NCBI RefSeq assembly: GCF_900187035.1
Contig: NZ_LT906446.1
Location: 124,001-188,000, forward strand
DNA: 64,000 bases
Reading direction: 5' to 3'
Source: Megamonas hypermegale
Lineage (GTDB): Bacteria > Bacillota > Negativicutes > Selenomonadales > Selenomonadaceae
Shown here: positions 27,160 to 47,660 of the stretch, in pieces
Layout of the letters: each line of letters begins with the position of its first letter
How positions within the stretch are numbered: position 1 is the stretch's first letter
Made by a program: the position numbers and the translations under genes
Notes under the pieces: generated by a model
Databases searched by the model: none
The model's input: only the letters and a program-made list of their open reading frames with translations
What the model was told of the DNA's origin: nothing

Positions 27160-27200
27160 AGAAACTCACTATGAGAATATATCTTGTAGTGAGTTTTTTT
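27160..27200 (+). terminator. Terminator
   Basis: AAACTCACTA pairs with TAGTGAGTTT followed by a long T run. It marks the left border of the accessory region. Confidence 0.8.
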
Positions 27201-27473
27201 TATTTGTAAAAGACTTTAAAATTACATATTAAAACAAAAATTTGTATTAATAGTGTTATTTTTTAGCAAAATTGTACTGACAGTACAACAAATAGATGAA
27301 TTTTTTAAGTAAAATATAGCATATAAATTAACGTAAAAAGATGAATTTACGTTATAGATTTTATTAAAAACTAAAATTGATACAAATAGGGCGGATATAT
27401 GAACTTATATGAATTGTAAATATTTCTGTAAATGAGATAATTTTATTAGTAGCAATGAAGGGAGTAATAGTAG
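27201..27473. other. Regulatory gap before first XRE gene
   Basis: The non-coding stretch holds the 17-bp palindrome described separately; the remainder is AT-rich with no ORF or RNA fold I can support. Confidence 0.5.
27272..27288. promoter_or_regulatory. Palindromic operator upstream of XRE gene (copy 1)
   Basis: TTGTACTGACAGTACAA is a perfect 17-bp palindrome. A near-identical site preceded by the same GCAAAA lies upstream of the second XRE gene (46658-46673), so it is probably the operator of these two paralogous regulators. Confidence 0.6.
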
Positions 27474-27710
27474 TTGTTAGATTCATCGTTTACACGGGAA
27501 TATAAACAAATTGGTGCAAAGATTGTATACTATCGTCGCCTAAAAGGTTATACACAAGAAACATTAGCTTTTAAAGCAGGTATTAGCACATCATATTTAT
27601 CAAGAATAGAACGTGGTACATATGCAACAGGGATTTCTTTATCAACATTTATGAAAATAGCAAAAGCACTTGATGTAGATATAAGTAAATTGTTTGAAAT
27701 GGATTTTTAA
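27474..27710 (+). CDS. XRE-family HTH regulator (copy 1)
   Basis: A 78-residue protein consisting almost only of a Cro/CI-type HTH: QIGAKIVYYRRLKGYTQETL, AFKAGISTSYLSRIERGTY. It is paralogous to the gene at 46738, and both are preceded by the same palindrome. The start is TTG 27474, about 10 bases after AAGGAG. It probably sets expression of the injection-type operon that follows. Confidence 0.8.
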   Translation: MLDSSFTREYKQIGAKIVYYRRLKGYTQETLAFKAGISTSYLSRIERGTYATGISLSTFMKIAKALDVDISKLFEMDF

Positions 27711-27726
27711 ATTTTTATTGTAAATT

Positions 27727-27759
27727 AATTAAGCACGACATATTATGTCGTGCTTAATT
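27727..27759. promoter_or_regulatory. Perfect 15-bp inverted repeat over WYL operon promoter
   Basis: AATTAAGCACGACAT and its exact reverse complement flank ATT. A TATAAT box (27762-27767) follows directly, so the repeat overlaps the presumed -35 region of the WYL gene promoter. It could be an operator, a terminator of the XRE gene, or both; the T tract is poor. Confidence 0.55.
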
Positions 27760-27794
27760 GCTATAATAAAATTTGTAAATGGAGGATAGCATAT

Positions 27795-28760
27795 ATGTCG
27801 ACGAATAAAATCAATAGAATGTTGTTGTTATTTCATAAACTGATAAAAGGCGAACATATACATAAAGCTGATTTTGCAAGAACACATGATGTTAGCGAAC
27901 GCTCTGTAGAAAGAGACATCGAAGATATACGAATTTTCTTATCAGAAATTCATTCTAATGATAAATTGATTTTTGATAAGCTGGAAAATGTTTATTATTT
28001 ATTGACTACTGGTAATAATGATAAATTGAACAATATAGAAAGTATTGTTTTATTGAAAATAATACTTGGAACAAGAGCTTTAGTAAAAAAAGAAGTGGAA
28101 TTTGTAATAAAATCTCTTAGATTGAATTTAACTCCACAAGATAGAAAAGAAATAATACATTCAATACAAGATGAGATTAACAATTACATTTCACCTGTGC
28201 ATAATAAACCGTTATTAGATATGTTAAATAATTTAAATAAAGCTATTATGAATAAAATGGTTATAAAGATAGATTATGTAAAAGATAATGGTACAGAACA
28301 TGAAAGAATATTAATGCCAGTTGCCTTTATTTTTTCAGATTTTTATTTTTATTTAATAGCATTTATTGAAGGAAAAGAATATAAATACCCTGCTTTTTTT
28401 CGAGTTGATAGGATTAAGAAATTTTCAGTACTCAATAAAAAAATAGCAGAAGATTTATCTAAAAAATATGATGTAGGAAAGATGAGATATTACCTACAAC
28501 TCATGTATGCTGGCGAGTTATTAACGATAAAAGTAAAATGTCAAAACTCATTGGTAACAACATTTCAGAATATGGTTCCAGACCATTGGTTAATAAAAGA
28601 TGATAGCAATTTTAAAATATTTGGTGCCAAAATTTTTGATAAAGGTTTTGTACATTGGGCTTTATCACAAGGTGCTGCTATTGAAATTTTAGAACCAGAA
28701 AATTTGAGACAAAAGATAAAAGATGAAATAAAAAAAATGAGTGAAATATATAAAGATTAA
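27795..28760 (+). CDS. WYL-domain transcriptional regulator
   Basis: A 321-residue protein. An N-terminal winged HTH (about 1-65: ADFARTHDVSERSVERDIED) is followed by a WYL domain (about 150-215: VIKIDYVKDNGTEHERILMP, YLIAFIEGKEYKYPAFFRVD) and a C-terminal WCX-like tail. WYL proteins sense ligands such as nucleotides and often head defence or accessory loci. ATG 27795 follows GGAGG (27781-27785). The gene is the first of a run of 14 same-strand genes ending at 46534. Confidence 0.85.
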   Translation: MSTNKINRMLLLFHKLIKGEHIHKADFARTHDVSERSVERDIEDIRIFLSEIHSNDKLIFDKLENVYYLLTTGNNDKLNNIESIVLLKIILGTRALVKKEVEFVIKSLRLNLTPQDRKEIIHSIQDEINNYISPVHNKPLLDMLNNLNKAIMNKMVIKIDYVKDNGTEHERILMPVAFIFSDFYFYLIAFIEGKEYKYPAFFRVDRIKKFSVLNKKIAEDLSKKYDVGKMRYYLQLMYAGELLTIKVKCQNSLVTTFQNMVPDHWLIKDDSNFKIFGAKIFDKGFVHWALSQGAAIEILEPENLRQKIKDEIKKMSEIYKD

Positions 28761-28781
28761 TATTGGAAGAGAGATTTTTAA

Positions 28782-29513
28782 ATGGATGATTTTAATGTTT
28801 TGGATGAAATGACAAATGAAGAATTAGATGTGATTGTGAAGCTTATTGTTGAAAAAGGATGGCAAACAGAAAGTTTATCAAAAGATAATGATTATAAAAA
28901 GTATTGCCCAGACCATAAAAAATATGTAGATAAAATAAAAAATGAACTTAGTTTAATGGGTGGAGATACTATCGCTAATGTAGCACGTTTTCTTATGGGA
29001 AAGAGTTCAAGTATATCTTATAGGGAAATGCTAAAAGATGTTTGTAAAAAATTAAAAATAGAATATGAAGAAAGTATGCTTGATGAAGAATTAGAGCGTG
29101 ATTTATTAGCAACAGTTTTAAAGAGAGCTTTTGATAAGTTATCAGATGTAGAGAAAAATGTACTCCTTGAAATTTTAGGAGAAAATTCTAATGAAGTAAC
29201 TTTAAACAATTTATTTTATAAGATTTTTGCAGATGATAATGAGAAAAAATATATTTTATCTGTGTTGGTAAGTAATACATTAGCGAAAACAATATGTGGT
29301 AAAGATTTATCTTTATTAAATGATATAAAAACTATAAATGAGTTAAAGGTATTGACTTCACCATTGAGTTCGATATTGATGAACGTAGATAAGACCTATG
29401 ATATAACGGGACCAGCGTATAGAATAACGCTTCCAGCTATTGTGTATATGGCATCTATGAAGCAAATTAAAAATGCAGATGAAAATAAAACATCTTTTTG
29501 GGATTTGTTTTAA
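28782..29513 (+). CDS. YaaW/UPF0174-family protein
   Basis: A 243-residue protein resembling E. coli YaaW (DUF3944 + UPF0174). Shared landmarks are the LMGGDTIANVARFL segment (about 58-72), the SYREMLKDVCKKLKI segment and the C-terminal GPAYRITLPAIVYMASMKQI. The molecular function of the family is unknown. It starts 21 bases after the WYL gene. Its association with an injection-type locus is the notable point. Confidence 0.65.
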   Translation: MDDFNVLDEMTNEELDVIVKLIVEKGWQTESLSKDNDYKKYCPDHKKYVDKIKNELSLMGGDTIANVARFLMGKSSSISYREMLKDVCKKLKIEYEESMLDEELERDLLATVLKRAFDKLSDVEKNVLLEILGENSNEVTLNNLFYKIFADDNEKKYILSVLVSNTLAKTICGKDLSLLNDIKTINELKVLTSPLSSILMNVDKTYDITGPAYRITLPAIVYMASMKQIKNADENKTSFWDLF

Positions 29514-29589
29514 TTAATATAAAATGAAGTAAGATTTTATATAATAACAAAATGCTTTAACAATGATATTTGAAAATGTGGGTGTTAGT

Positions 29590-30591
29590 ATGGGCGATAT
29601 AAAGATAAAAAAGAAATTAGTTAATTTTATTGAAGAATGTATTGAACGATATATTGATGAGCATTTAGTAGATTTAAAGAGAAAAATATTAAATTTAGAT
29701 GGTTTTAAAAGTGATGAGGAATATAAAAATTTGCAATCTCAATATAGTCAAATAAAAGATGAAAATGGAAATTTGCAAAGATATATTGATGATTTACATG
29801 AAGAAAAAAATGAGTTAGAACATAAAAAAGAAATTTTAGAAGTAGAATTAGAAGAGAATAAAGAAAAGATATATAAGTTAAAAGAAGATTTTTATAAATC
29901 AATGGAACATAAGTGTAAAAAAAATGATGTATTAAAAATATCGTTGAATGAATGTGAAGAAAGGCTAAGTAAAATAAATGAAGAAAATGATATATTAAAA
30001 GAAAAATTAATTAAATATGAAACAAATCTTGATAGAGCGAATAATGCAATTAATGATATAAAAAATGAAGCTGGAAAAATGATTGATAGTATGAAAGAAA
30101 AAATAAAAGAAGCACAACAGCAAAAAGAAATACTAGATTATTTTTCAAATCGCTATGGTGAGATAGATAGTATGTTTAAAACATATCAGCAGCTAAACGA
30201 AGATATTCGTGATGAATTGCAAGGAATTTTTGGCAATGCTGATACACCTGTAATGTTTTTTTGCAATGCATTGCAGGAAAATCACTTAGATAACTTTTGG
30301 GATTACATAAGTAATAAGATAAATAGTGGAAAAATTGATAGAAATATAGAAAAAAGCTTATGTAAGTTATTTGATTTCTGTTTTGATATGGTAAATAATA
30401 GTCAACAAAAACCTTTGTATAAGCGATTGCAAGTACAAAAAGGCTTTGATTTTGATAATACGTATATGATAAAAACTACAGATAGTAGTCAATTAGGAAA
30501 TGTAAAAGAAGTAAAATTAGCAGGATATGTATATACCTTAAGCAATAAAATAGTAAGACGTAGCTTAGTGCAAGTAGAAAGCGAGGATTAA
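29590..30591 (+). CDS. Coiled-coil protein with GrpE-like C-terminus
   Basis: A 333-residue protein. Residues about 30-190 are an almost unbroken charged coiled coil; the C-terminal 60 residues include VKEVKLAGYVYTLSNKIVRR followed by SLVQV, which resembles the small beta domain that ends GrpE (GY...g..lRpA.V.V). GrpE releases ADP from Hsp70, and the next gene, three bases away, encodes an Hsp70-like protein, so a dedicated nucleotide-exchange role is a reasonable inference. The resemblance is by eye. ATG 29590 was preferred to ATG 29563. Confidence 0.5.
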   Translation: MGDIKIKKKLVNFIEECIERYIDEHLVDLKRKILNLDGFKSDEEYKNLQSQYSQIKDENGNLQRYIDDLHEEKNELEHKKEILEVELEENKEKIYKLKEDFYKSMEHKCKKNDVLKISLNECEERLSKINEENDILKEKLIKYETNLDRANNAINDIKNEAGKMIDSMKEKIKEAQQQKEILDYFSNRYGEIDSMFKTYQQLNEDIRDELQGIFGNADTPVMFFCNALQENHLDNFWDYISNKINSGKIDRNIEKSLCKLFDFCFDMVNNSQQKPLYKRLQVQKGFDFDNTYMIKTTDSSQLGNVKEVKLAGYVYTLSNKIVRRSLVQVESED

Positions 30592-30594
30592 TTC

Positions 30595-33579
30595 ATGACA
30601 AAAATTGTAAAAACATTACCTATAACAGAAAATGAATTAGCAGATTTTAAAAAGAAGAAAATAGAAAAATGGATTGATAGTGATTGTGAAAAAATAGAAC
30701 AGCAATTAAAAGAATTAGTAGAATTTATTGATGAACAAGTAAAATCGCAGGAGTTTATCTATATAGCTAATAAAGATGTATATTATATTCCATCTATAGT
30801 AGGATTATTTCCTAATATAGGTAAGTTTAATACAAGCTGGTATAGAGACTCTGATTATAATTTAGATAAAAACATGTTGAGTAATAATTTTTCATTAAAA
30901 GTAGGTATTTTTGATGGAGATTTACCAACTGAAATAGAAGTGAATAAATGTATTAAAAATAAATTAATACGAAATAATAATTATATTAAATTAAATGGTT
31001 GTAGCTATCGTGGATTAGCATATAAAAAGGAAAAAGAGTTTTGGGCATATGATATATATTGCAATAGAAAGGATTTATTTGGTAATGGTGATGGACATTA
31101 TGTATGGATTATGCCTATTTATCGTTTAAATGGGATAAATAGCGAACCTGTTTCAGGTGCAAAAACATTATTGCTTTGGATGAAATATGATTTATCATAT
31201 GTATTTGAAGAAAAATATACAAAAGCATATTATCTATTATTGGATTTATATAAAAAGTATAAAGATTATTTAATAGCAAATGATAAAGGTATTGTATTTT
31301 TTAAAAAGAAAATTTATGAGGAATTAGTAAATGGTAAGGATTTTGATTTTCTTACACATAAACAGGCAGAAATACAATCTTTATTAAAAAGTAAAAAAAT
31401 AGAGGCAGAAAATGATTATATTGAAAAATTAAAGAAAAATTTATTAGAATGCGATAGACGACGTGCTAATCTTGATAGTTATGATGAAAATATCTTGTTC
31501 GACCCGAACCGCGGTCATTGGGATTTATGGGACTGGAATGAAGATACGGAAACGGCGGGCGAGGTAGTTCTCGAGGAAGGTTTCACGGCGCGCGACCCGG
31601 CTGATGATATTAATCACGGCATAGTCGGTATCGACTTCGGTACGAAAAGTACGGTTGTTGTTTATGAAAATGAACATTTACAGACTTTGCCACTTCAAGT
31701 TGGTAGTGGTAATTATAGCAAAGGCGTACAACAGAAAAACTATGAAAATCCTACAGTAATCCAATTCATTGATATTGATTCATTTGTAAAAGCGTATAAT
31801 GATAGAGCAGGTCGTCCTTTTACAAGCTGGAATGAAGTAACCGTATCGCATACAGCATATGATAATCTTAGTAATAGTAATAGTGATAAATATTATTCTT
31901 TCTTTGATAGTATCAAACAGTGGTGTGGCACAGATAATATGCGTATAAAATTGAAAGATGATAAAGGATTAATAAAGGATTTACCTCCATTTATGGAAGT
32001 TACGGAAGGCGATATTAATCCTGTAGAAATATATGCATATTATCTTGGCTTATATATAAACAATATGCTACAAGAAAAACATATATTTTTACAATATATA
32101 ATGTCTTTCCCTGTAACATATGATAGAGGTGTAAGAGAAAGAATGCGCCGCAGTTTTGAAGCAGGCATTCGCAAATCTTTACCAACAGCATTGCTTTCTA
32201 ATGAAGATGCAATGAAACAGTTTATTGTGCAAGAAGGTGCTAATGAACCAGCAGCTTATGCGATAACAGCCTTAGAAGAATATGGTTTTGACCCATGTGA
32301 TGATGATGAAAATTATTATGCTGTATTTGATTTTGGCGGTGGTACTACTGATTTTGATTTCGGTGTATTTAAAGAAGCAGAACAAGATAGATATGATTAT
32401 GAGTTAATTCATTTTGGTGCAAATGGTGATAAAACATTAGGTGGAGAAAATTTACTTAAATTATTGGCTTTTGAAGTATTTAAAGCTAATAAAGAAAAAC
32501 TGTTAAATCCATCACAAAGTGAAAATAATAAAGGTAAGATACCTTTTACTTGGGCAGCTGAAAAACGAGATTTTGCTGGTAGTGAAGCATTGATAAAAGA
32601 TTCTCAAGAAGCACATCTTAATATGCATAATTTAATGGAAGAATTGCGTTGTGTTTGGGAAGCACCACAATCAGAAGAAGCACAGAAAATTTTAGATAGT
32701 GGTAGTGTAAAAGTAAATTTATTCACGGATAATGGAGAGTCATTTGCAAATATGGAATTAATAATTCCTGTTGACAATGATGAAAACAATGCAAAAGGTT
32801 TAGATTTAAAGAAAATACTTACTCAGCGCATTGATAAAGGTATAAATAATTTCTTTATTGCATTGAGTGAAGCTTTTGATAAAAGCAGTAGTGATGAAAA
32901 ATATAAAATAAAAGCATTATCTGATGTAGATGAAATATCTATTTTCCTTGCAGGTAATTCCTCTAAATCTATTATTGTAAAAGAATTATTTGAGCAATAT
33001 ATAGGTGAAAGTGGTAAAGCAAGAGAAATTCTTGGATTTAGTGCAGACCAAAAAATGCCACAGTTTAAATTATATCCAGCACTTGGTACGGAAGATGCTT
33101 ATAATTTAATGGAAGAAATTGGAATAGAAACAGAACGAGATAATTTAGAAAAACCAACTGGTAAAACAGGCGTTGCATTTGGTCTTTTGAAATGTAGAGA
33201 AAGTGGTAATATTAAAGTTATTGATATTACACCAGATAATACAAAAGTTCAATTCCGTTATTATGTTGGCAGAAAGAAAAAACGTAAATTCAAAACTATT
33301 ATTGACCGTACTACTAAAATGAAACAATGGTATGCATTTATTGATGCAAGTGCTTCATTTGATTTACTCTATACAGACCAGCCGGTAGCTGCTACAAATG
33401 AGGCACCAGCTACAATAGCAAAACAAATTCATGTAACTATAGACAAGCCGGACCCTGAAGCAATGGTATATATTCGTCCAGTTGATTCTCATACTATTGA
33501 ATACGCAATAGCTAAAAGTGAAGATGAATTAACAGCAGAAAAAATGACATCTGAACCAATTGCTATAAAACTGGAATAG
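30595..33579 (+). CDS. Large Hsp70/actin-fold protein (first of two)
   Basis: A 994-residue protein. The N-terminal third (about 1-300) is unlike Hsp70 and very AT-rich in its DNA. The Hsp70/actin ATPase core starts with phosphate-1 GIDFGTKST (345-353), phosphate-2 DFGGGTTD (579-586) and adenosine motif FLAGNSSKS (about 784-792). The C-terminal part (about 880-994) is beta-rich, where DnaK has its peptide-binding domain, but I do not see the classical one. ATP-driven conformational work on components of the injection apparatus is inferred from context. A GC-rich patch (about 31500-31640) marks the junction between the two halves. Confidence 0.75.
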   Translation: MTKIVKTLPITENELADFKKKKIEKWIDSDCEKIEQQLKELVEFIDEQVKSQEFIYIANKDVYYIPSIVGLFPNIGKFNTSWYRDSDYNLDKNMLSNNFSLKVGIFDGDLPTEIEVNKCIKNKLIRNNNYIKLNGCSYRGLAYKKEKEFWAYDIYCNRKDLFGNGDGHYVWIMPIYRLNGINSEPVSGAKTLLLWMKYDLSYVFEEKYTKAYYLLLDLYKKYKDYLIANDKGIVFFKKKIYEELVNGKDFDFLTHKQAEIQSLLKSKKIEAENDYIEKLKKNLLECDRRRANLDSYDENILFDPNRGHWDLWDWNEDTETAGEVVLEEGFTARDPADDINHGIVGIDFGTKSTVVVYENEHLQTLPLQVGSGNYSKGVQQKNYENPTVIQFIDIDSFVKAYNDRAGRPFTSWNEVTVSHTAYDNLSNSNSDKYYSFFDSIKQWCGTDNMRIKLKDDKGLIKDLPPFMEVTEGDINPVEIYAYYLGLYINNMLQEKHIFLQYIMSFPVTYDRGVRERMRRSFEAGIRKSLPTALLSNEDAMKQFIVQEGANEPAAYAITALEEYGFDPCDDDENYYAVFDFGGGTTDFDFGVFKEAEQDRYDYELIHFGANGDKTLGGENLLKLLAFEVFKANKEKLLNPSQSENNKGKIPFTWAAEKRDFAGSEALIKDSQEAHLNMHNLMEELRCVWEAPQSEEAQKILDSGSVKVNLFTDNGESFANMELIIPVDNDENNAKGLDLKKILTQRIDKGINNFFIALSEAFDKSSSDEKYKIKALSDVDEISIFLAGNSSKSIIVKELFEQYIGESGKAREILGFSADQKMPQFKLYPALGTEDAYNLMEEIGIETERDNLEKPTGKTGVAFGLLKCRESGNIKVIDITPDNTKVQFRYYVGRKKKRKFKTIIDRTTKMKQWYAFIDASASFDLLYTDQPVAATNEAPATIAKQIHVTIDKPDPEAMVYIRPVDSHTIEYAIAKSEDELTAEKMTSEPIAIKLE

Positions 33580-33591
33580 TGAGATGGTAAT

Positions 33592-35379
33592 ATGGCTGAT
33601 TATTTAACAGAAAATGCTATATTTAGTTGCAATATGTCGCCAACAGTAATTATAAAATGTAAAGAAACATCTAATAAAAAGGTAAAATATAAAGGAACTG
33701 CATTACTGACAAAAAGTGCAAAGATAGATACTAAAGCAGGAATCTGTCCTATTTTAACAGCACAAGCTCAAGGTGCACCTCAAATGTGCCGTTGTTCTTT
33801 ATCTGGATGGATAAATTATTCTATGAATACAAGCGCACAAGGAACAGCTTTTTTAACGGAGAATTCGAGAAATTCTTGTACGTATGGAGGAATAATCAGT
33901 GTAAAATCAAGTGGATTATTTTTTCAGAAAGTAGTAAAAGGTTCAAAAGCAAGTATTAGTTCAGTAAACTGGTTAAAGCCTTTTGTAGAAGTATCACAAA
34001 AAAATCCTGATACGATGCCAAAATCTATAAAATCGGTGGATATAAATAATAGTGGTTCTTTAAAGGCGGGAGATTTCTCATCGCAAGCTGTTAATCAAAA
34101 AAAAATAATAAATACATTGGATTTTAAATCAAATACAGTACAACCTTTAGTAACTAAAGATGAGGTAAAATCAAAACCACAAAATTTGTTATGTAATATG
34201 GATAAAGGTGAAAAATGCAAGCAGTGCCGATATCCATCAGCTTCAGTAGAGGTAAATAATGATTCTATTAAGCTTAGACGTAATTATGAAAATCAATCTG
34301 ATGATGAAAAAGATGATTATGACCGTTACTATGAAGATATTTTTGACAATTTCACAGAAAAATATTGGACTGATGCAGCACATCATATAATTTCTGGTAA
34401 TCAAGTTTTCAAAAAGTGCCAAGGAATAGTAAAGTTAGCTAACTTTTATAATGAAGAGTATTTAAGTGGTAATACTGCATATAAAGGTTATGATATAAAT
34501 TCTGCTAAAAATTGTATAATGCTTATTTCTAAAGATGTAGAATACAGTAAAAAAGTAAATAGTAATGTCAAAAAGAATATTAGTGCTTATGATGCTATGA
34601 GTACAACAGGTATTCAATGGCATTTAGGAGGGCATAGTTATACTTTTAATAAAGAAGAAATACCAATATTACATCAACGAATAAAGTTGTTTACCAAGAA
34701 AGAAGCTAGAGAATTAAAGAATTATGCTGAACTTGTAGAAGAGGAACTTAATAAAATACAAATTTCTATGTGTAGAAATAAAGTTTGTCGAGCAACACCA
34801 CGTCAAAACGCTGCCTTTGTTACTCGTATGAATAATCTTTCATCTAAGATTAAGAAATATTTAGGGGATTTTCGTATAAAACCGCATCGTAGTTATCCAT
34901 ATTATGTATCACTAGAAGCTTTTCGATATACTTTTTCTTTACCGCGTACAGGCAAAATTATGTTGGTTCGTCAAGGTAATAAGGAAAATAGTTTGTTATT
35001 AGAAAAGTTTAGAATTAAACGTTTTGAAGATACTATTATGGATAGAGACAAAAATCTTGATTTTAGTAGAATTTTTAATGAACAAGATGGTCAAAATCCT
35101 AAAGAATTTGTGTTTAATGATGAACAGTCAAAAAAAGATTGTATATATTTTTGCGATAATATTGAGCATTTTATTTTAATCGATAATCCAAATCTTAACT
35201 TATTACCATTTAAAATAGAAGCAGAAAATATATTATCTTTGCAAGGAATAGAAAAAATGTCATCAGAGCAGTTTTTACAACAACATGATACAGAAATTCT
35301 AGTATTTTTACGTAATAACGTTGTTACTTATACAGCTCCAGTAAAGAAAATAAAAGAAAGATTGCAACTAGGTGGTTGA
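33592..35379 (+). CDS. PAAR-like (DUF4280) protein with AHH/HNH nuclease domain
   Basis: A 595-residue candidate effector. Residues 1 to about 115 match DUF4280, a PAAR-like spike-tip domain (CNMSPTVI..., CPILTAQAQG, CRCSLSG, SCTYGGIISVKSSG). After a linker, DAAHHIISGNQVF (His264-His265), DINSAKNCIML and WHLGGHSY (His344-His348) fit the AHH branch of the HNH/EndoVII nuclease superfamily found in polymorphic toxins. A C-terminal region of about 200 residues (Imm11/DUF1629-like pattern IEHFILIDNP) follows. It would sit on the VgrG-like spike and be delivered with it. The next gene is a likely immunity gene. Confidence 0.7.
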   Translation: MADYLTENAIFSCNMSPTVIIKCKETSNKKVKYKGTALLTKSAKIDTKAGICPILTAQAQGAPQMCRCSLSGWINYSMNTSAQGTAFLTENSRNSCTYGGIISVKSSGLFFQKVVKGSKASISSVNWLKPFVEVSQKNPDTMPKSIKSVDINNSGSLKAGDFSSQAVNQKKIINTLDFKSNTVQPLVTKDEVKSKPQNLLCNMDKGEKCKQCRYPSASVEVNNDSIKLRRNYENQSDDEKDDYDRYYEDIFDNFTEKYWTDAAHHIISGNQVFKKCQGIVKLANFYNEEYLSGNTAYKGYDINSAKNCIMLISKDVEYSKKVNSNVKKNISAYDAMSTTGIQWHLGGHSYTFNKEEIPILHQRIKLFTKKEARELKNYAELVEEELNKIQISMCRNKVCRATPRQNAAFVTRMNNLSSKIKKYLGDFRIKPHRSYPYYVSLEAFRYTFSLPRTGKIMLVRQGNKENSLLLEKFRIKRFEDTIMDRDKNLDFSRIFNEQDGQNPKEFVFNDEQSKKDCIYFCDNIEHFILIDNPNLNLLPFKIEAENILSLQGIEKMSSEQFLQQHDTEILVFLRNNVVTYTAPVKKIKERLQLGG

Positions 35380-35382
35380 TAG

Positions 35383-35952
35383 ATGAAATATTATATAATG
35401 TATGCTGAAACAGCAGTAGAAGAATATTTTAAACCAAATGATATGCTTAAAGATGAACTCATGGAAGGCTGTTTGAATTCTGAATTCCAATATTTAAATC
35501 ATGAAGCTATAGAAAGTGAGATTTCAGAAGATGGTGGTTTGGAGTTTCCAGATTTTGTGATAAGTGGATGTGTGCCATTAATTTCAGATAAATTTAAGCG
35601 ATTGCTAGATGATTTAAAGGTAGATAATTTATTCTATAAACCAATAATATTTACATTTAATTCTCTTGGTATAAAAGAATATTATTATTTAGCATTGCCT
35701 CCACGGATAAATTGTTTAAATTGGGATGAAAGTAATATACAAGCAGAAGAAAATGAGTTTTTAACTGAAGGAGAATTAATACAAGAGGCAGAAGATATAG
35801 TAATTAACGATTATGCAGTGGGAAATTATAAAATCTTTAAGTTAGCAAATGTAACTAATCAAGAAATTATAGTTACAGAAGAAATAAAGAACATTATAGA
35901 AGAAGCAAAATTGGAAAATGTATATTTTGCTGAATTGAAAGGAGTAGATTGA
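35383..35952 (+). CDS. Imm11/DUF1629-like immunity protein
   Basis: A 189-residue protein. The pattern LEFPDFVISGCVPLISDKFKRLL, then KEYYYLALPP, NCLNWDES and NYKIFKLANVTNQEIIVTEEIKNIIEEAKLENVYF fits the Imm11 (DUF1629) immunity fold by eye. It starts three bases after the toxin-like gene and overlaps the next gene, as expected for the cognate protector of the AHH nuclease. Confidence 0.6.
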   Translation: MKYYIMYAETAVEEYFKPNDMLKDELMEGCLNSEFQYLNHEAIESEISEDGGLEFPDFVISGCVPLISDKFKRLLDDLKVDNLFYKPIIFTFNSLGIKEYYYLALPPRINCLNWDESNIQAEENEFLTEGELIQEAEDIVINDYAVGNYKIFKLANVTNQEIIVTEEIKNIIEEAKLENVYFAELKGVD

Positions 35953-35954
35953 TT

Positions 35955-38141
35955 GTGGCAATAAATTCATTTGAAAAAATAAAGCAGACATCAAAAGCAA
36001 TTTTATTTGAAGAATTTGATGTAGAAAAGAAGAGCTTATATGATTTATTAAGTATAGGAACTCCATTAAGTGATGATTTTGAAGAAGACATACAAACTAA
36101 ATTAGTAGTTAATAATTTTGAAGATTTTATTAAAAAGTTTGCACCTAAGGTTTATGAAATTTGTACTAGTATAGATGGAAAACCAAAATTTGAATATACA
36201 ACAGATGTAAACTTAGCTAAAAAATATAATGGAATAGCTCAAGATATTACAGAACATGTGTATTATCGTATGTTAAATCAGTTATATATAGAAAAAGGTA
36301 GTAGTGGTCAATCTAATTTAAAATTTGATGATAAAGATATTTTAGAGATGTTAACTCCAAAGCAGGAAGTAGAAGATGCAAAAGATATTCGTAAAAAATT
36401 ACAATTGACTTTGGAAAAATATAGTGAATTAAAAAGTAAAAATGAAAATGCAAATGAGTATGCTCAACAATTTATTGAATGTAGAAAAAAAATACGGAAA
36501 AAATATTCGCAATCACAGATGTCATTATTACCTTTAGCTATAGAGGATGTAAAAACTAAAATAGAATATTTAGATAAAAATTTAAATAATCAAAGTAGTA
36601 TAGAAGATAATAATGATATTCTTACAACAGTTGGTCAACTGACTTTTGATAGTTCTGGGACATTAGTAGTAAAAGAAATAAGTATAAATAATGACGTTCA
36701 AGGAGTAGAAGATAAAAATATAGTAAACAAAAATAACATAAATAATGAAATTAGAGATATCTTGGCATTAGATTATGATTCTAGTAATAAAAAAGATAAT
36801 GAGTTCATTAAATCGATAGTATTATCTAGTTATGCTCCTATAAATATGAGTTCTAATGAAAATAAAACTATCGCAGAAATTAAAGAAGAAAAAAATAAAT
36901 GCTTAGCATTAAAAAATTCTTATGAAGAGGTATATTGTCAAGCTAAAAATGCATTTATAAGTGAAATGACGACAATAATAGAAAAATTATTGGATGTAAA
37001 AGTATTTTTTGATCATGCGACAGTAGATGGTAATAAATTAGAAAATGGTATATTAATTACAAATTGTAAAGCTAGTAAGCTAATTAAAAGTGATATAAAA
37101 GATAAATTTGAAAAATTTATTAAAAATAGAGGAGTAGATCAAACTAGAAATAAAATTTGGTTTGCTATTTTACCAGCAATAGAAGAAAAAGATAAGGTAA
37201 TAGTAGAAGCAAACAAAGATATAGATCCTTTCGATGTTATGGGTCCGTTAAATGTACAAAAAGATAATGAAAGTGATATTAGTGATAAATATTTAAGCTT
37301 TAGTGCAGCTAAAACTGTTTTGGAACTTTTAGATAAAAGTAAAATAATGACCATATTTAGTTTTAAAGGTAATAAAAATAATGGATTTGCAGCATTAAAT
37401 GAAAATTATATTATAAATAAAAAAGAAGAATTAAATGGGATTAATTATGAACATGCAGTTTATGCATATCCTAATTTTACATTAACAAGAGAACGAACTG
37501 TTATATTAGATAACAAAGAGATAAAAGTTCCTGGTGTATATATAGATGCTGCATATCCAGCTGCTGGTTTATTGATAGGTAGTCAGCAAATTAAATATTT
37601 AGAAAAACGAGGCTTTAAAGGAAAATTAAATCCTAATAATGTTTGTGTTCATGTAGATTTAGAAGAAGATAGAATAAGAAAAAATCTTTTAACTAAATTT
37701 AATCGTGAAGTAACACTCCGTTGGAGTCAAGATTTAAAAACAGAAATAAATAGAGATAAATTTGGTTTTGTATTTTGTAGTGATGAAGTCTATATTGACG
37801 ATATACCAATGAAAAATGCATATGTTTATTTTGCTAGAACAATGAAGAAAAGTTCCAGAGGTATTTATAGACCTATTTATAGAGTTTTAACAGAAGATTT
37901 TATTCGTCAATATTTAAAAACTAATTCAACCATTAAAGAATCTACTATGACAAAATTTGAAAATGTAGAATGTAATGAATGGCAAGTAGAAGGTAAGAAA
38001 AATAGTAGTAAGGATTACGTTAATTTGATATTACGACCAGATGAAAAGGTGGAATATGATAGAGAAGATAAAAAATTAAAAATTACTTTTAATGATGATG
38101 AAGCTATTTTAGAAGATATTGATATTGATAGTGAAGAATAA
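35955..38141 (+). CDS. Large structural protein, contractile-sheath candidate
   Basis: A 728-residue protein I do not recognise with certainty. By position (right before the tube candidate and VgrG) and by its C-terminal half (about 470-700: VPGVYIDAAYPAAGLLIGSQ, KNLLTKFNREVTLRW, IYRVLTEDFIRQYLKT) it is the best candidate for a TssC/phage-type sheath. The first ~430 residues include helical and coiled segments without a match. GTG 35955 was chosen because AAAGGAG (35938-35944) is best spaced to it; TTG 35949 is the alternative. A baseplate or wedge role is an alternative. Confidence 0.45.
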   Translation: MAINSFEKIKQTSKAILFEEFDVEKKSLYDLLSIGTPLSDDFEEDIQTKLVVNNFEDFIKKFAPKVYEICTSIDGKPKFEYTTDVNLAKKYNGIAQDITEHVYYRMLNQLYIEKGSSGQSNLKFDDKDILEMLTPKQEVEDAKDIRKKLQLTLEKYSELKSKNENANEYAQQFIECRKKIRKKYSQSQMSLLPLAIEDVKTKIEYLDKNLNNQSSIEDNNDILTTVGQLTFDSSGTLVVKEISINNDVQGVEDKNIVNKNNINNEIRDILALDYDSSNKKDNEFIKSIVLSSYAPINMSSNENKTIAEIKEEKNKCLALKNSYEEVYCQAKNAFISEMTTIIEKLLDVKVFFDHATVDGNKLENGILITNCKASKLIKSDIKDKFEKFIKNRGVDQTRNKIWFAILPAIEEKDKVIVEANKDIDPFDVMGPLNVQKDNESDISDKYLSFSAAKTVLELLDKSKIMTIFSFKGNKNNGFAALNENYIINKKEELNGINYEHAVYAYPNFTLTRERTVILDNKEIKVPGVYIDAAYPAAGLLIGSQQIKYLEKRGFKGKLNPNNVCVHVDLEEDRIRKNLLTKFNREVTLRWSQDLKTEINRDKFGFVFCSDEVYIDDIPMKNAYVYFARTMKKSSRGIYRPIYRVLTEDFIRQYLKTNSTIKESTMTKFENVECNEWQVEGKKNSSKDYVNLILRPDEKVEYDREDKKLKITFNDDEAILEDIDIDSEE

Positions 38142-38155
38142 AAGGAGTGTAGTAT

Positions 38156-38605
38156 ATGATATATACAATGACAATTACAACAAAAGATGGTAGCGAAGTA
38201 ATAGAGATTGGAAAACTTGAAGAAGATAATAAAGATGAACGAACAGCTATAACAGACATAGAAATTAATATAGATACAATAGATGATAATGTACGAAATA
38301 AATCTAATGCTGTATTAGCTAAAATAAAAATTTGTGGCGAATTAAAAGATTTTCTTACAGAACGTTTAATGAAAATATTTAAATGGTCTTGTGAATATGA
38401 TGAGGAAAAATGGTATAGAACAATAGAAATAGAAGTAAAAACATCTAATGGAAAAGTAATACGCACATATATTTTTACTGATGTTTTTGTAGTAGATTAT
38501 AAAGAAATTTATAAGGCAGATGGAAAGAATGCAGAATCATCAAGATTTGAATTATATCTTACACAGAAAGAAAATAATTTGAATAAAATAGATACATTTA
38601 ATTGA
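38156..38605 (+). CDS. Small tube (Hcp/gp19-like) candidate
   Basis: A 149-residue beta-rich protein with one helix in the middle (about 60-80). The closing strands TYIFTDVFVVDYKEIY and SSRFELYLTQK fit the tube/Hcp fold, and it lies directly between the sheath candidate and VgrG. It would form the inner tube. No family hit can be checked here. AAAGGAGTG precedes ATG 38156. Confidence 0.5.
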   Translation: MIYTMTITTKDGSEVIEIGKLEEDNKDERTAITDIEINIDTIDDNVRNKSNAVLAKIKICGELKDFLTERLMKIFKWSCEYDEEKWYRTIEIEVKTSNGKVIRTYIFTDVFVVDYKEIYKADGKNAESSRFELYLTQKENNLNKIDTFN

Positions 38606-38617
38606 TGAGGTGTAGTT

Positions 38618-40060
38618 ATGAAGATTAAGGGATTTGAAAAAGTTTTTTATATTAATGAATTTGAATTAAAAAAAGCAAAAAATAGGCATAGTATATGCAA
38701 ATTTAAAGCAAGTATTCAAGATGGAGAGATAGATAGATATTTAAATCTAGTTGGAAAACAGGTAACAATTCAATTAGAAAGTGATATTCCCATATTTGTT
38801 GGTATAATTCAAGAAATTGATGTAGAGAAAACATATAGTTCAATATCCCTTAATGTTTCATTAATATCATTATCAAGTCTTATTGATAATGTAAAAAAAA
38901 GTAGAGTATTTCAAGATCCTAAAAAGAAAATTAATGATATTTTATCAGCTAAGCGACTTGCATTGAAAAAGTGTGAGTTGCATTTAGCTGATAAAGTTAA
39001 AAATATAGAATATAAAAGGGTAATAGTACAAAATCAAGAAACAGATTTTGATTTTATTTGTAGAATTGCTAGATATATTAATACAGATGTATGGATAATA
39101 GATACAATTGAAAATCAATTTGAATTTTATATAGATGAGCAAGTTAGTGATAGAGTCAATAAGGTAGAAGAAAAAGAGATAATAGAATATAAAATCAAGA
39201 AAAGTAATTATAATTATAAATTTGAATTAGTATTAGATAAATATTTAGAATTAGGACGAATTGTTCAGATTGGAAAAAGTGTACAAAAATATATAATTGA
39301 ACAAGTTATTGTAAGACAGGTGCATAATACTAATAAATATATATATGTATTAAATTTATTAGAAAATAAAAGAAGAGAGCAAACTGATGCAGTATATTTG
39401 GAAAAAACTTTAAAATTAAAAGCTAAAGTGACAAATATAAAAGATCCTGAAAATAAAGGAAGAATACAAGTAGAATTTATCGAAAAAAATGTTGAAGATA
39501 TGGATAAAGATTTAATAAAAAGAACATGGTTAGCATATAATAGTCCTTATAGTGGAAAGCAAAGTGGAATAGTTTTTTTACCAGATGTAGATGATATAGT
39601 AGAGGTTATATTTACAAATGAAGAGTGTTATGTAGGTTCTACATTTAGAGATAAAAGCTTATTAGCAGAATGTCAAAATGTTGAAGAAAAATATATAGGA
39701 AATAATTATAAGCAACGAATTTTTTGGAAGAAAGATTCATTAGAATTATTTTCGTTTGAAAATAAAATTATTATGAATAAAGATAAGATAGAGATGTCTG
39801 TAGGTAATAATAAATTAATAATGAATAAAGATTTAATTGTTTTGCAAACAGAAGAAAATCAAGTTTTATTAGGTAAAGACGGATTGATAAATAAATCCCA
39901 AAAAGATATAGATTTGCAAGGTAAGAATATAAAATTTGGTAGTGAAGATAAAATACAATTTGAGGCTAAAAATAAAATTAATATAAAAGGTAATAGTGAT
40001 ATAAATGTAAAGAGTAGTGGAACTTTATCTTTAAATGGAAATAAAGTTAATATTTGTTAA
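38618..40060 (+). CDS. VgrG-like spike protein
   Basis: A 480-residue spike. The N-terminal part matches the gp27-like hub (RVIVQNQETDFDFICRIARY, residues about 128-147). The OB/gp5 domain is clear: KAKVTNIKDPENKGRIQVEF, IKRTWLAYNSPYSGKQSGIV, FLPDVDDIVEVIF. The C-terminal ~90 residues (GNNKLIMNKDLIVLQTEENQ onward, ending INIKGNSDINVKSSGTLSLNG) form regular strands typical of the triple beta-helix spike. It is the hallmark that identifies the locus as a contractile injection-type system. Start behind GATGAGGTG. Confidence 0.85.
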   Translation: MKIKGFEKVFYINEFELKKAKNRHSICKFKASIQDGEIDRYLNLVGKQVTIQLESDIPIFVGIIQEIDVEKTYSSISLNVSLISLSSLIDNVKKSRVFQDPKKKINDILSAKRLALKKCELHLADKVKNIEYKRVIVQNQETDFDFICRIARYINTDVWIIDTIENQFEFYIDEQVSDRVNKVEEKEIIEYKIKKSNYNYKFELVLDKYLELGRIVQIGKSVQKYIIEQVIVRQVHNTNKYIYVLNLLENKRREQTDAVYLEKTLKLKAKVTNIKDPENKGRIQVEFIEKNVEDMDKDLIKRTWLAYNSPYSGKQSGIVFLPDVDDIVEVIFTNEECYVGSTFRDKSLLAECQNVEEKYIGNNYKQRIFWKKDSLELFSFENKIIMNKDKIEMSVGNNKLIMNKDLIVLQTEENQVLLGKDGLINKSQKDIDLQGKNIKFGSEDKIQFEAKNKINIKGNSDINVKSSGTLSLNGNKVNIC

Positions 40061-40082
40061 TATAAAATAAGGTGTGAAATAA

Positions 40083-41342
40083 ATGAGGCGAAAGTTGAAA
40101 GTAGATATAAATAATATTATAGATGATTCTAAAATAGATGATTTGAAAATTAAATCTATTTTAAAAGATGTTTTTCAAGAACTAATAGAATATCAGGAAA
40201 ATTTAAGACAAGATACAGATAAGCAAATAAAGGAAGAATATTTATCTGAAAAAAGAGATTGGGATGATGTTTGGCAAATAAAAACAATGTTAGAAGATAA
40301 AAATAATATTAATATAGGAATAGGTAATGGATTTCGTCCAATTAAAATAGGTAATAGTATTTATTTTGCTAATGATACTATGGAGAAAATGGCAAAAGTA
40401 AATAAAGAAGAAAATCAATTTTTTTTGAATTGTATGTATGATGAATTAGAGTCGTTATGTCAAAAAAAATATCATGGTTTTATAATAACAAAAGAAAATC
40501 AAAAAAAAGAGTTTACTTATAAGTTAGTAGAGCAATATAGATTTATTGAGGCAGAAAAATTATTATATGAAATAGCAAATTTGTATAGAATAAGAAAACC
40601 ACGTATTTTTTCACCTTATGCTCGTAGAGCTGTAGATGTATGCATTGAAAATATAAATAGTGATGAATTTTTATCAGCTTTAGAATATAATTTTTGTTTA
40701 TATGAAAATAAATTACAAGGAGTTTTATTAACAAATTTTGTATTGATGTGGAATGTAGATATACAAAACGAAAATGAACCTTTAAAAGGGTTAGAACCTA
40801 GTGAGAAAGAACCATATTATCAATATTTTTATAATGAAGATATAAAAGAAAATAGTTTTATTTATACAAAAAATATTTGTAATCATATATATAAAAAAGA
40901 TAATGAAATAAGAATTTTTTGTCAGGATAAAATGGAAAGAAATGAATATAAAAAAATAAATATATTGGATACAAAAGAAAATAATAATATTGTATTTGAA
41001 AATATATTTGAAAATAAACATATTAATAAATGTAATCATTTAAGAACAAAAGCAGATGTAATATATATTTTAAATTTATTTAATAATATTAATAATGATT
41101 ATAATTGTAGCTTAATAAGTGTTGGAGCAGTAAATAATAATGGAAAAAATCTTGTTCGTTATAGAAAAGAACATAGTTATTTTAAAGAAAAAAATGAATT
41201 ATATTTTTCAAATATGAGAAATAAACCATATATATGTATAAAATTTACGGGAAAAAAGATATTTTTAGTTGATTATGCAAATTATATGTTACATTATTTA
41301 GAAAGTAAGTATCCAGAATATAATTGGGTGGGTAAGTATTAA
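40083..41342 (+). CDS. Uncharacterised protein of the injection locus
   Basis: A 419-residue protein with no family I recognise. It is highly charged, with a helical N-terminal third (1-60 Asp/Lys-rich) and a FIEAEKLLYEIANLYR segment (about 155-170). There is no signal peptide or membrane segment. Its position just after VgrG, and one-base overlap with the next gene, fits a baseplate or adaptor component. The DNA is among the most AT-rich in the window. Confidence 0.6.
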   Translation: MRRKLKVDINNIIDDSKIDDLKIKSILKDVFQELIEYQENLRQDTDKQIKEEYLSEKRDWDDVWQIKTMLEDKNNINIGIGNGFRPIKIGNSIYFANDTMEKMAKVNKEENQFFLNCMYDELESLCQKKYHGFIITKENQKKEFTYKLVEQYRFIEAEKLLYEIANLYRIRKPRIFSPYARRAVDVCIENINSDEFLSALEYNFCLYENKLQGVLLTNFVLMWNVDIQNENEPLKGLEPSEKEPYYQYFYNEDIKENSFIYTKNICNHIYKKDNEIRIFCQDKMERNEYKKINILDTKENNNIVFENIFENKHINKCNHLRTKADVIYILNLFNNINNDYNCSLISVGAVNNNGKNLVRYRKEHSYFKEKNELYFSNMRNKPYICIKFTGKKIFLVDYANYMLHYLESKYPEYNWVGKY

Positions 41343-41989
41343 TGGAATATTTATGGCAACAATATGATAAAAACAATAAATATGTAATAGCACAAAATTT
41401 ATTATCACCATATTCAGAAGTTCAAGGAATGGTAGATGGCTGTATTGAAATAAATCCATTATTTAGGTTTGAAAAAATTTTTAGCTCATTATTTAGTGAG
41501 GATGATTGTGTATTAGATATAAATTTGAAGAAAAAAATAGAAAATATACTAATACACTACTTAGCTAATTTAGATTTTTATTATGGATTGCATAAATTTA
41601 TTTTAGAAGAAGAGCAAATTGAGCAAGAGATAGAAAAGAATTTTTATGGAGAAGAAATAAAAAAAATATATATAAATTTAGGTAAAAAAGAGCAAATGAC
41701 AATATTAAGTTTGCTTAATTATAAGAACAAAATAAATAACAAAAAAAGTTTATTTTGTGAAGCTATAAGTAAAATTTTTCCAAAATCAATATTATATTTT
41801 TATAAGGAAGAAAGAAAATTTCTATTATATATAGCGGAAAATGACACAAAAGAAAATATTGATAAAATGATATTAATTGAAGATTTATTTTTAGATAATA
41901 TTTGTAATTTGGAAGTTTTTTGGAATAAACATTTGGGAATAATTGGAGAAAATAATACTATGAGTATAGATAAAATGATTGTTTATTAA
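41342..41989 (+). CDS. Uncharacterised protein of the injection locus
   Basis: A 215-residue protein I do not recognise. It appears largely helical and acidic (EEEQIEQEIEKNFYGEE near 88-104). ATG 41342 overlaps the preceding stop, so the two proteins are probably made in fixed ratio and may work together. Function is unknown. Confidence 0.6.
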   Translation: MEYLWQQYDKNNKYVIAQNLLSPYSEVQGMVDGCIEINPLFRFEKIFSSLFSEDDCVLDINLKKKIENILIHYLANLDFYYGLHKFILEEEQIEQEIEKNFYGEEIKKIYINLGKKEQMTILSLLNYKNKINNKKSLFCEAISKIFPKSILYFYKEERKFLLYIAENDTKENIDKMILIEDLFLDNICNLEVFWNKHLGIIGENNTMSIDKMIVY

Positions 41990-42010
41990 GAAAGGAGATA
42001 AAATGATATA

Positions 42011-44827: not shown

Positions 44828-44834
44828 TTTTTAT

Positions 44835-45671
44835 ATGTTAGTTAATAAAAAAGTTTTTTTTAGACATGGTGCAATACTAACAAAAGAAATGTTAAATGTA
44901 GTTTATGATTATCCACGTGACTTTTTATGTTTAAAATATGATAAATATAGTGATGGAATAATAAGCGGATTAGATTTTAAAATATTGCATGAAGATAATT
45001 CATTAGTATTGACAAAAGGAATAGTAAAGTATAAAAATGAATTATATTTTTTATTAGAAGATGTGAATTTAACAAAATTTTTTAGTCAGCAAAATTTGGA
45101 AATAAGTAGAAAATCACGTTATTTACAGTTGAAAATGGAAGTAAAGGATAATAAAGAAAATGTACAGGAAAAACTATTAATGTTAGTAGTACTAGATAAT
45201 GCCTTTGACGAAAGAAATATTCCATTATGTAGATTTAGATGGAATGGTTCAGAAATAAAAATTCCTAAAATAAATTATTCAGATGAAACTATTTTTTATG
45301 ATTTTATTGACAATCAAAGTTATTTAAATGTGATAGATACACCGTATGCATATTTAAAAGAAGCAACATACCATAGTATGTTATTTAAAGCAATAGGTGA
45401 ATATCTAAACAATAAAAAAAATAAAACTATATTAGATTATATTATACTTATACAGATACAAAATAATATAGTATTATCGATGGAAACAATAAAATCATAT
45501 ATATTATTTTCAGGTAAAGAAAAGGCAGTGGTAGATAATTGTAATAGAAAAGATTTATTTAAATTATTTGTTGATTGTATAATTAATAATCAAAATGAAA
45601 CTGTAAATAAAAATTATGAAATAAAGAAAAATGAAAGTAAAGAAGAAATAGAATATGGTGGAATGTTGTAA
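44835..45671 (+). CDS. Baseplate-like protein candidate
   Basis: A 278-residue protein. The N-terminal pattern FFRHGAILTKEMLNVVYDYP, GIISGLDFKI, VLTKGIVKYKNELYFLLED is beta-rich and resembles the start of baseplate or tail-attachment proteins that begin with a 'location and domain' motif. It is not a confident family match. It lies seven bases after the second Hsp70-like gene. TssK-like attachment is one possibility. Confidence 0.45.
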   Translation: MLVNKKVFFRHGAILTKEMLNVVYDYPRDFLCLKYDKYSDGIISGLDFKILHEDNSLVLTKGIVKYKNELYFLLEDVNLTKFFSQQNLEISRKSRYLQLKMEVKDNKENVQEKLLMLVVLDNAFDERNIPLCRFRWNGSEIKIPKINYSDETIFYDFIDNQSYLNVIDTPYAYLKEATYHSMLFKAIGEYLNNKKNKTILDYIILIQIQNNIVLSMETIKSYILFSGKEKAVVDNCNRKDLFKLFVDCIINNQNETVNKNYEIKKNESKEEIEYGGML

Positions 45672-45760
45672 TAAAAGTTTAGAAAGTCATAAAAATGATA
45701 AATATAAACATGGGTATATATTCATTAAAAGATTTATAAAATAAAGGAAGAAGAATTTTT

Positions 45761-46372
45761 ATGGATTTACAAGTTATGCAAAACGTGTTAGATTGGGGTT
45801 ATGATAAAGCTGTTAATGGAGTACCTGGTCTTGATAGTGCTAAGGAATTAGCAGATGATTATTTGAATGAAGATGGCAGTTTAAGTGAAAAGGTTGACTC
45901 TTTAATTCGTTGGCAAAATACAAAATGTGCTACATCAGGATTTATAACTAATCTAGGCGGTTTAATAACTCTTCCAGTAGCTATTCCTGCTAATGTAAGT
46001 AGTACATTATATGTTCAATTAAGGATGATAGCTGCTATCGCCTATATGGGTGGATATGATTTAAAAGATGATAAAGTAAGAGCTTTAGTATATTTATGTT
46101 TGTGTGGAAATGAAGCAAAAGAAATTACTAAGGATTTTGCAATACAGATTGGAAAAAATTTTGCTACACAATTTATACGAAGTATTTCTGTTAAAACAAT
46201 TAATCAGATTAATAAAGCTGTAGGTATGAGACTTATTACTAAATTTGGTGAGAAAAGTTTAATTTCTTTAGGTAAAAGTGTTCCTATTGTTGGCGGTATA
46301 ATTGGTGGTACTATAGATGGTATTGCTTGTAATACGATAGGCAATGTTGCCAAAAGGACTTTTATAAGATAG
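45761..46372 (+). CDS. EcsC-family protein
   Basis: A 203-residue protein with the EcsC-like hydrophobic core: SGFITNLGGLITLPVAIPAN, LYVQLRMIAAIAYMGGYDL, then IVGGIIGGTIDGIACNTIGN at the C-terminus. EcsC-family proteins are thought to be peripheral or membrane-inserted; function unclear. It follows an 89-base gap, so it may have its own promoter, and it precedes a small cationic peptide gene. Confidence 0.75.
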   Translation: MDLQVMQNVLDWGYDKAVNGVPGLDSAKELADDYLNEDGSLSEKVDSLIRWQNTKCATSGFITNLGGLITLPVAIPANVSSTLYVQLRMIAAIAYMGGYDLKDDKVRALVYLCLCGNEAKEITKDFAIQIGKNFATQFIRSISVKTINQINKAVGMRLITKFGEKSLISLGKSVPIVGGIIGGTIDGIACNTIGNVAKRTFIR

Positions 46373-46390
46373 TAAAAAAGGAGGTAAGAC

Positions 46391-46534: not shown

Positions 46535-46563
46535 TGATAAAAGTTATTTGATTTAAATTTTTT

Positions 46564-46959: not shown

Positions 46960-46978
46960 ATTAAAAGGGGTAATTAAA

Positions 46979-47638: not shown

Positions 47639-47660
47639 AGAGTTAGGGAGTTGATTTATT

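Follow-up and report, generated by a model that had tools for sequence, protein, structure and literature searches.

GrpE is viewed as a housekeeping co-chaperone that dimerises via a helix and uses a beta domain to open the ATPase cleft of DnaK, releasing ADP. We analysed a 64,000-nucleotide stretch of the Megamonas hypermegale genome (contig NZ_LT906446.1, positions 124,001 to 188,000; hereafter the window), in which a gene for a coiled-coil protein, here called the coil protein, directly precedes a gene for a large Hsp70-like ATPase. Both are among 14 consecutive co-directional genes, separated by gaps of -4 to 89 bp, here called the operon. We propose that the 333-residue coil protein is probably a divergent GrpE that acts as the private nucleotide exchange factor of the Hsp70-like ATPase whose gene follows after three bases.

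Among the closest described systems are conflict systems. GAP1-N2 DO-GTPase systems use HSP70 and GrpE, sometimes with two Hsp70s, together with DO-GTPase, GAP1 and FNIII proteins, and the FNIII proteins are usually joined to a DnaJ domain or to TPR repeats (Kaur et al. 2020, PMC7159879, in the sections available to us). The operon shares with them, as described in those sections, an Hsp70 and a GrpE outside housekeeping, whereas DO-GTPase, GAP1 and FNIII were absent from the Pfam matches of its 14 proteins. CoCoNuT systems also combine coiled coils with an Hsp70-like unit, comprising a nucleotide-binding domain (NBD) and a substrate-binding domain (SBD), and are built on the McrB GTPase and McrC; GrpE is not mentioned in the main text of that paper as available (PMC11090510). 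The association of Hsp70 and GrpE in conflict operons is already published for GAP1-N2 GTPase systems (PMC7159879, same sections), from which the present pair differs in its partners and in its divergent GrpE. No description of the present pair was recognised in the open-access literature searched. The two genes are as follows.

29590..30591, + strand: coiled-coil protein with a divergent GrpE C-terminal domain, 333 amino acids (open reading frame, GrpE homology, model)
30595..33579, + strand: Hsp70-like partner, 994 amino acids (open reading frame, structure model, structural alignment)

The two open reading frames (ORFs) share a strand, and the coil ORF ends at 30591, three bases before the ATG of the partner at 30595, which is the spacing given in a preliminary description of this DNA. 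An alternative upstream start for the coil ORF, an ATG at 29563, is possible.

A family profile was seeded with the window protein and one relative and converged at 47 coil ORFs in 83 loci. Alignment of 40 coil proteins, namely the window protein and 39 of the 47 ORFs (six near-copies, L083_13472 and the truncated L044 were omitted), showed a variable coil followed by ~140 conserved residues that close with G..FD, G.I..V.L.GY and a terminal strand. In this alignment, which excludes the truncated L044 and beta-less copies found later, G312 was invariant, D289, G303 and V327 were nearly invariant, and the beta domain was kept throughout. Comparison of the 40 C-terminal domains with 18 canonical GrpE sequences (30 loci fetched, 19 passing a motif pattern, one duplicate removed) by hhalign gave a probability of 96% and an E value of 4.1e-9 over 47 columns, collinear over the beta domain, whereas 200 column-shuffled GrpE alignments reached a probability of at most 3.45%. 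The preliminary description had read a likeness to the GrpE beta domain from the 'GY' and 'RRSLVQV' motifs at the C-terminus, and this likeness was borne out. We also ran the coil profile as a six-frame search against 398 phylum-wide genomes, of which 11 matched at E 0.001. Four of these, the window genome included, hold family members, each with an Hsp70-like gene adjoining, and the other seven matched through a canonical GrpE (Pfam E 4.3e-47 or better). This search, which did not ask for GrpE, is the stronger test of homology, and nothing beyond the family and GrpE was matched. The C-terminal ~140 residues of the coil protein are a divergent GrpE lying outside the Pfam model.

The coil protein was modelled with AlphaFold2, giving a mean predicted local distance difference test score (pLDDT) of 89.8 and the element order of GrpE, namely a long helix, a helical bundle and a beta domain.

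29713..30189, + strand: long helix, residues 42-200 (~159 residues), predicted coiled-coil handle (AlphaFold2 model)
30199..30399, + strand: four short helices, residues 204-270, in the place of the GrpE four-helix bundle (AlphaFold2 model)
30418..30579, + strand: GrpE-like beta domain, residues 277-330 (hhalign, model, Foldseek)

Foldseek placed GrpE at ranks 1-8 among the PDB chains, and the VIA-align superposition on 1dkg_A spanned residues 229-333. The fold prediction proposed as a check in the preliminary description yielded a GrpE-like beta domain. The coil protein resembles canonical GrpE (PF01025), the partner of DnaK, in beta-domain sequence, element order and an adjoining Hsp70-type ATPase; it differs in scoring below the Pfam cut-off, in its long coil, in the sequence of its helical bundle and in having no dnaJ alongside. 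It is also a second GrpE, since the genome encodes a housekeeping GrpE (G000:C1:744193) in a grpE, dnaK, dnaJ cluster at C1:741943-744666.

The model of the partner (pLDDT 88.7, predicted template-modelling score 0.80) was divided into three parts.

30595..31599, + strand: N-terminal extension, about residues 1-335 (model, family census)
31615..33210, + strand: Hsp70 nucleotide-binding domain, residues 341-872 (VIA-align, conserved positions)
33211..33576, + strand: C-terminal beta domain, residues 873-994, aligned to the Hsp70 SBD-beta (model, VIA-align)

Residues 341-872 aligned with the NBDs of DnaK, BiP and Hsc70 at VIA-align Z scores of about 19-20; for the partner, VIA-align Z scores were 18.6-21, and Foldseek matched it to DnaK (2.5e-20). 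D347, T350, K441, E551, D579, T584, D586, G787 and N788, assigned by eye as the counterparts of DnaK active-site positions, were invariant in 40 of 40 Hsp70-like relatives. The Pfam HSP70 model scored 15.7 bits on the window protein, below its cut-off of 20.6. The ATPase domain of the partner thus has the fold of Hsp70, and every active-site position that was checked is intact. Alignment to DnaK and BiP chains extended to residue 994, with a root-mean-square deviation of about 7 to 9 over both domains, and the protein has no helical lid in the model, since the chain ends with the beta domain.

A 150-bp patch at 31495-31644, where the N-terminal extension of the partner meets its ATPase domain, reaches 54.7% guanine plus cytosine (GC), compared with an operon mean of 25.7% (standard deviation 5.1%); such a value or a higher one occurs in 5 of the 63,850 150-bp windows of the 64 kb. 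GC stays raised 3' of the patch, and four relatives show a milder rise at the same junction. The patch may be a recombination scar.

Coil and Hsp70-like genes show linked inheritance. Loci were counted as Hsp70-like ORFs of at least 740 amino acids, shorter fragments being excluded, and a coil gene was found in the locus of 54 of these 89 ORFs, on the same strand in all 54 and directly upstream by less than 250 bp in at least 32 of them. On the Hsp70-like tree, a 'quick' tree with several long branches, coil presence was clustered (9 changes versus 27.9 in shuffles). A family census of 189 genomes, like the phylum census a lower bound because few candidates were scored per genome, detected the coil gene in 37, the Hsp70-like gene in 67 and both in 32 (Fisher p 1e-12), and an Hsp70-like gene lay less than 4 kb from 43 of the 56 coil places. 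In the phylum census (398 genomes), the Hsp70-like gene was present in all four coil genomes (3/3 without the window), and the coil gene in four of the five Hsp70-like genomes (p 4.9e-9, window counted). Coil and partner distances were correlated (Mantel r 0.94), with shared species history contributing in part, across 36 pairs in which the coil gene was required to lie upstream within 700 bp and from which L044 was omitted.

The linkage depended on the N-terminal part of the partner. Of 49 Hsp70-like matches covering that part (start at or before profile position 50), 43 had a coil gene no more than 5 kb away, compared with 4 of 60 for matches starting at position 150 or later, several of which are contig-end fragments or divergent long proteins in which N-terminal absence is not proven. 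Limiting the comparison to open frames of at least 780 amino acids gave 43/48 versus 2/53. Four of the 113 census matches start at positions 51-149, three of them with a coil gene, and fall in neither class. Retention of the N-terminal extension tends to go with retention of the exchange factor, and loss of one with loss of the other; this is the most informative new observation of the analysis. The co-occurrence check foreseen in the preliminary description found the pair recurring in related loci, and the private chaperone pair proposed there gains support from adjacency, the shared strand, the Mantel correlation and the coupling to Hsp70-likes bearing the N-terminal part.

Several additional arrangements of the two genes were observed. 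In L044 (4802-12964), the pair lies 3' of an apparent housekeeping grpE-dnaK-dnaJ cluster, as judged by eye, and its coil ORF is truncated. At L013 (14248-17019) and L140 (G128:C81), a coil gene is accompanied by at least two Hsp70-like copies and by other large uncharacterised genes, and the L013 Hsp70-like copy is extremely divergent (tree branch 7.35).

A number of results weigh against a dedicated GrpE-type exchange factor. The motif pattern used to choose the 18 canonical GrpE sequences includes beta-domain residues, which may flatter the hhalign match. The coil profile picked out canonical GrpE in just 7 of the 398 genomes, and it must miss most canonical GrpE, since GrpE was present in 61 of 61 genomes of a separate phylum sample. 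In a Pfam scan of the window coil protein, GrpE was absent from the families found at E up to 1, and the protein had no match above the curated cut-off of the GrpE model (25.8 bits). In single-sequence scans at E up to 10, the Pfam GrpE model was matched by twelve of the 40 coil members (best 0.0016), so that it did not outperform models of coiled-coil families (APG6_N, 17/40), and a search of PDB sequences with the family profile, also up to E 10, retrieved no GrpE. Foldseek returned no match of the coil model at E 0.001 (best 5.1e-3, low TM-scores). VIA-align listed GrpE rows first (Z 5.7, 5.3 and 5.2, down to 4.5) with unrelated rows tied at 5.1 and 5.0, and it is therefore non-discriminating for GrpE. 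Among the loci, 35 of the 89 Hsp70-like ORFs, at least four of which start less than 240 bases from a contig end (L070, L072, L075 and L077), had no coil gene, indicating that the Hsp70-like ATPase can work without the coil protein. Three coil genes (G002, G028 and G174) directly precede a gene other than the Hsp70-like one, and beta-less coil proteins lie beside a 525-aa DnaK-like gene in L130 (3108-5472), L134 and L138. The single-sequence Pfam scans of coil proteins are dominated by coiled-coil noise, and the GrpE similarity is clearest at the family level, not from the window protein alone. Twenty-five of the coil-less Hsp70-likes form one Selenomonadales clade, which reads as loss because it is nested within coil-bearing proteins.

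The beta-less coils of L130, L134 and L138 retain the helical part; nearby are a gene of ~620-740 amino acids and one of ~480-510 amino acids with an Hsp70-like start.

The adjoining of a beta-less version and another Hsp70-like gene would also suit a GrpE-derived tether without exchange activity, in which the coiled coil acts as a scaffold or brake holding the Hsp70-like ATPase to a machine. The predicted helix of ~159 residues fits such a role, as do the coil ORF lengths among relatives, which range from 113 to 468 amino acids, the shortest possibly being partial. We nevertheless consider a tether unlikely, given that the beta domain is kept in the 40 aligned proteins with G312 invariant, which is as expected if the domain still contacts the ATPase.

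If the coil protein is an exchange factor, it would dimerise via its long helix, and its beta domain would wedge into the ATPase domain of the partner, opening the cleft and freeing ADP, by analogy with GrpE. The lidless partner, with its SBD-beta-like domain, would grip and release its client quickly, brief binding being expected from the missing lid, and the private exchange factor would reset it. The N-terminal extension, kept where the coil protein is kept, could be part of the docking or client-recognition surface. The client would most likely come from the machine that accompanies the pair.

No Pfam J-domain match was found in any of the 14 operon proteins, and the sole match of the genome (G000:C1:741943) belongs to the housekeeping cluster, outside the window, in keeping with the earlier remark that the locus has no DnaJ. 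A loose, uncalibrated pattern found no J-domain match in 81 of 83 related loci, many of which are short contigs. Because no J protein is encoded with the pair, the partner may borrow the single housekeeping DnaJ, or the client or the N-terminal domain may stimulate it. A related type VI-like locus of another family (L009, 2150-2587) encodes its own J-domain protein; it also contains SrfB and genes judged by eye to be FHA-like and phosphatase-like, but no coil gene.

We examined the genes that accompany the pair in other genomes. By BLAST, with HerA and WYL queries taken from coil loci, a HerA-type ATPase was found in 19 of 44 coil loci and a WYL regulator in 8 of 44, whereas neither occurred in the 35 Hsp70-only loci. 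The HerA-type protein of L007 matched the PADLOC model mad8 (3.4e-22) and HerA models. In Vibrio and Photobacterium the gene order is Hsp70-like, small protein, HerA, two small proteins and coil. An Acinetobacter plasmid carries, consecutively, WYL, HerA, coil, two Hsp70-likes, a HEPN gene, a dynamin gene and a tyrosine recombinase; the HEPN and dynamin genes had no PADLOC model at E 1e-5. Outside the window genome, the client could belong to a HerA-type ATPase complex, and a first guess at the role in the HerA operons would be that of a conflict trigger.

These neighbours, together with the published theme of Hsp70 and GrpE in conflict systems (PMC7159879, as above), would also suit a pair that forms the sensing core of an anti-phage or conflict system, in which the Hsp70-like protein recognises an invader protein, the exchange factor sets the threshold, and HerA or other effectors act downstream. 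We hold this possible, though we lean against it. The window Hsp70-like protein had no PADLOC model (2023 library) at E 0.1, and only one of four small HerA-operon proteins scanned had a match, a weak one (Csx1, E 0.0046). The window Hsp70-like protein had no match in 50,697 phage records, for which reason a phage-borne origin was also rejected. The L051 pair lies beside a DUF6240/FliK-like protein, an rRNA methylase and an aminotransferase, as identified by Pfam on three proteins. Defence content of the neighbours was scanned in part, by Pfam on those three proteins and by PADLOC on ten, which returned an RtcR/PspF-type regulator (L060), a DEDDh exonuclease/PDC-S48 (L045) and a GlgB-type protein (L060); the matched proteins of L060 and L045 are read as probable housekeeping proteins. 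Nine viral contigs showed weak similarity to the Hsp70-like protein, confined to the ATPase domain, at 24-39% identity.

In the window, the pair lies in a stretch bracketed by two strong terminator-like hairpins, with two weaker terminator-like sites of the + strand (33772 and 46038) between them.

27160..46605, + strand: stretch of 14 co-directional genes with a strong terminator-like hairpin at either end (27160-27198 and 46564-46605)
27750..28760, + strand: WYL-domain regulator, with which the co-directional unit begins (Pfam WYL 7.5e-11)
28782..29513, + strand: JukA-like protein (PADLOC JukA 6.6e-39)
33592..35379, + strand: DUF4280 (PAAR-like) protein with an AHH nuclease region, predicted toxin (Pfam)
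35383..35952, + strand: Imm11-type immunity protein (Pfam)
35949..38141, + strand: 730-aa protein, marker of the injection-type (type VI-like) operon (no family above cut-off)
38156..38605, + strand: Hcp/TssD-like protein, sub-threshold (PF17642 E 0.0024, 18.2 bits against a cut-off of 25.8)
38618..40060, + strand: VgrG-like spike protein (Phage_base_V 2.8e-10, over cut-off)
42011..44827, + strand: SrfB-like protein (Pfam SrfB 4.1e-7)

Among the type VI parts, VgrG (Phage_base_V) and DUF4280 scored above cut-off and the Hcp-like protein below it. The DUF4280 match had 28.9 bits (cut-off 26.3), and the AHH match of the same protein had 22.2 bits, marginally below 22.3. The 730-aa protein had nothing above cut-off in Pfam (LPD14, E 0.0036, sub-threshold) and nothing in NCBIfam, PHROGs or PDB sequences; 'sheath' as its identity was unsupported by the searches and was dropped. 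Type VI systems of a non-canonical kind that have DUF4280 PAAR-like proteins have been described (PMC5349215, in the part available). The operon resembles them in its neighbouring DUF4280, VgrG-like and Hcp-like genes; it differs from the systems in that part of the paper in that neither a sheath protein nor ClpV was recognised among the Pfam matches of its 14 proteins. In the window genome, a first guess at the client would be the toxin and spike proteins of the type VI-like operon, which the pair might load or recycle.

In the family of the window, the pair is often found in front of type VI-like genes. Of the 20 contigs (window included) that bear the closer subfamily of the 730-aa marker, 15 had an Hsp70-like match no more than 8 kb away on the same strand, when all 113 census Hsp70-like places were used. 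This association, and the weak matches of PHROGs tape-measure models to the coil helix (best 8.3e-5), would fit a coil protein that is a component of the type VI-like machine, such as a ruler or a tail or sheath partner, with its GrpE likeness incidental. We regard this as highly improbable, because none of the 30 contigs with a more distant marker had an Hsp70-like match within 8 kb, and the pair occurs without recognisable type VI-like operon genes in Clostridia, Vibrio, Campylobacterota and on a plasmid; as a general role it was rejected on both grounds.

The pair is a portable module whose neighbour machine changes, since its neighbours differ among HerA operons, a plasmid and type VI-like operons. 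The nearest named relatives on the Hsp70-like tree are Selenomonadaceae. In G562 (L162, 1469-18459), a related cassette of the pair and type VI-like genes lies between two direct copies of a transposase gene, which are almost identical to each other and were judged by eye to be IS30-like, and the end of the cassette holds a 530-aa DnaK-like gene in place of SrfB. We tentatively extend the reading of the coil protein as a dedicated exchange factor to a broader one. The pair may be a portable, J-protein-free switch of the Hsp70 type, in which a lidless Hsp70 is combined with a co-inherited N-terminal domain and a private exchange factor. It may range over at least Bacillota, Pseudomonadota, Campylobacterota and Lentisphaerota and may have been recruited repeatedly to power unrelated machines with ATP, namely HerA-type conflict operons and a type VI-like toxin injector, in which it might take the place of ClpV-like recycling. 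If true, a divergent GrpE travelling with its own Hsp70 would represent the exchange cycle repackaged for other, probably conflict-related machines. The pair would also provide a small, testable system for the evolution of exchange-factor specificity, and the coil profile together with the N-terminal part of the Hsp70-like protein offers a sequence handle for finding such operons.

The JukA-like gene upstream was tried as a further partner and rejected. JukA is the sensor of Juk defence (review PMC13282480, in the part available). Matches to it were found in 18 of the 189 genomes, and, the window aside, no listed place shares a contig with a coil or Hsp70-like gene, in draft assemblies that can hide linkage. 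As far as the family census shows, a JukA-like gene is linked to the pair in the window genome only, which sets the pair apart from Juk defence. No model of JukB or another Juk effector was among the matches of the eight window proteins scanned against PADLOC.

Additional genes were observed at the end of the operon and beyond it. The final gene ahead of the strong terminator-like hairpin encodes an EcsC-family protein (45761-46372) that matches the PADLOC candidate PDC-S29 (8.7e-89). Downstream, at 46925-49098, are zinc-ribbon genes, one identified as DUF805 by Pfam and one by eye, followed by a transposase OrfB/TnpB-like ORF, assigned by eye, and a Ser/Thr kinase at 52184-52954 and 53646-55217.

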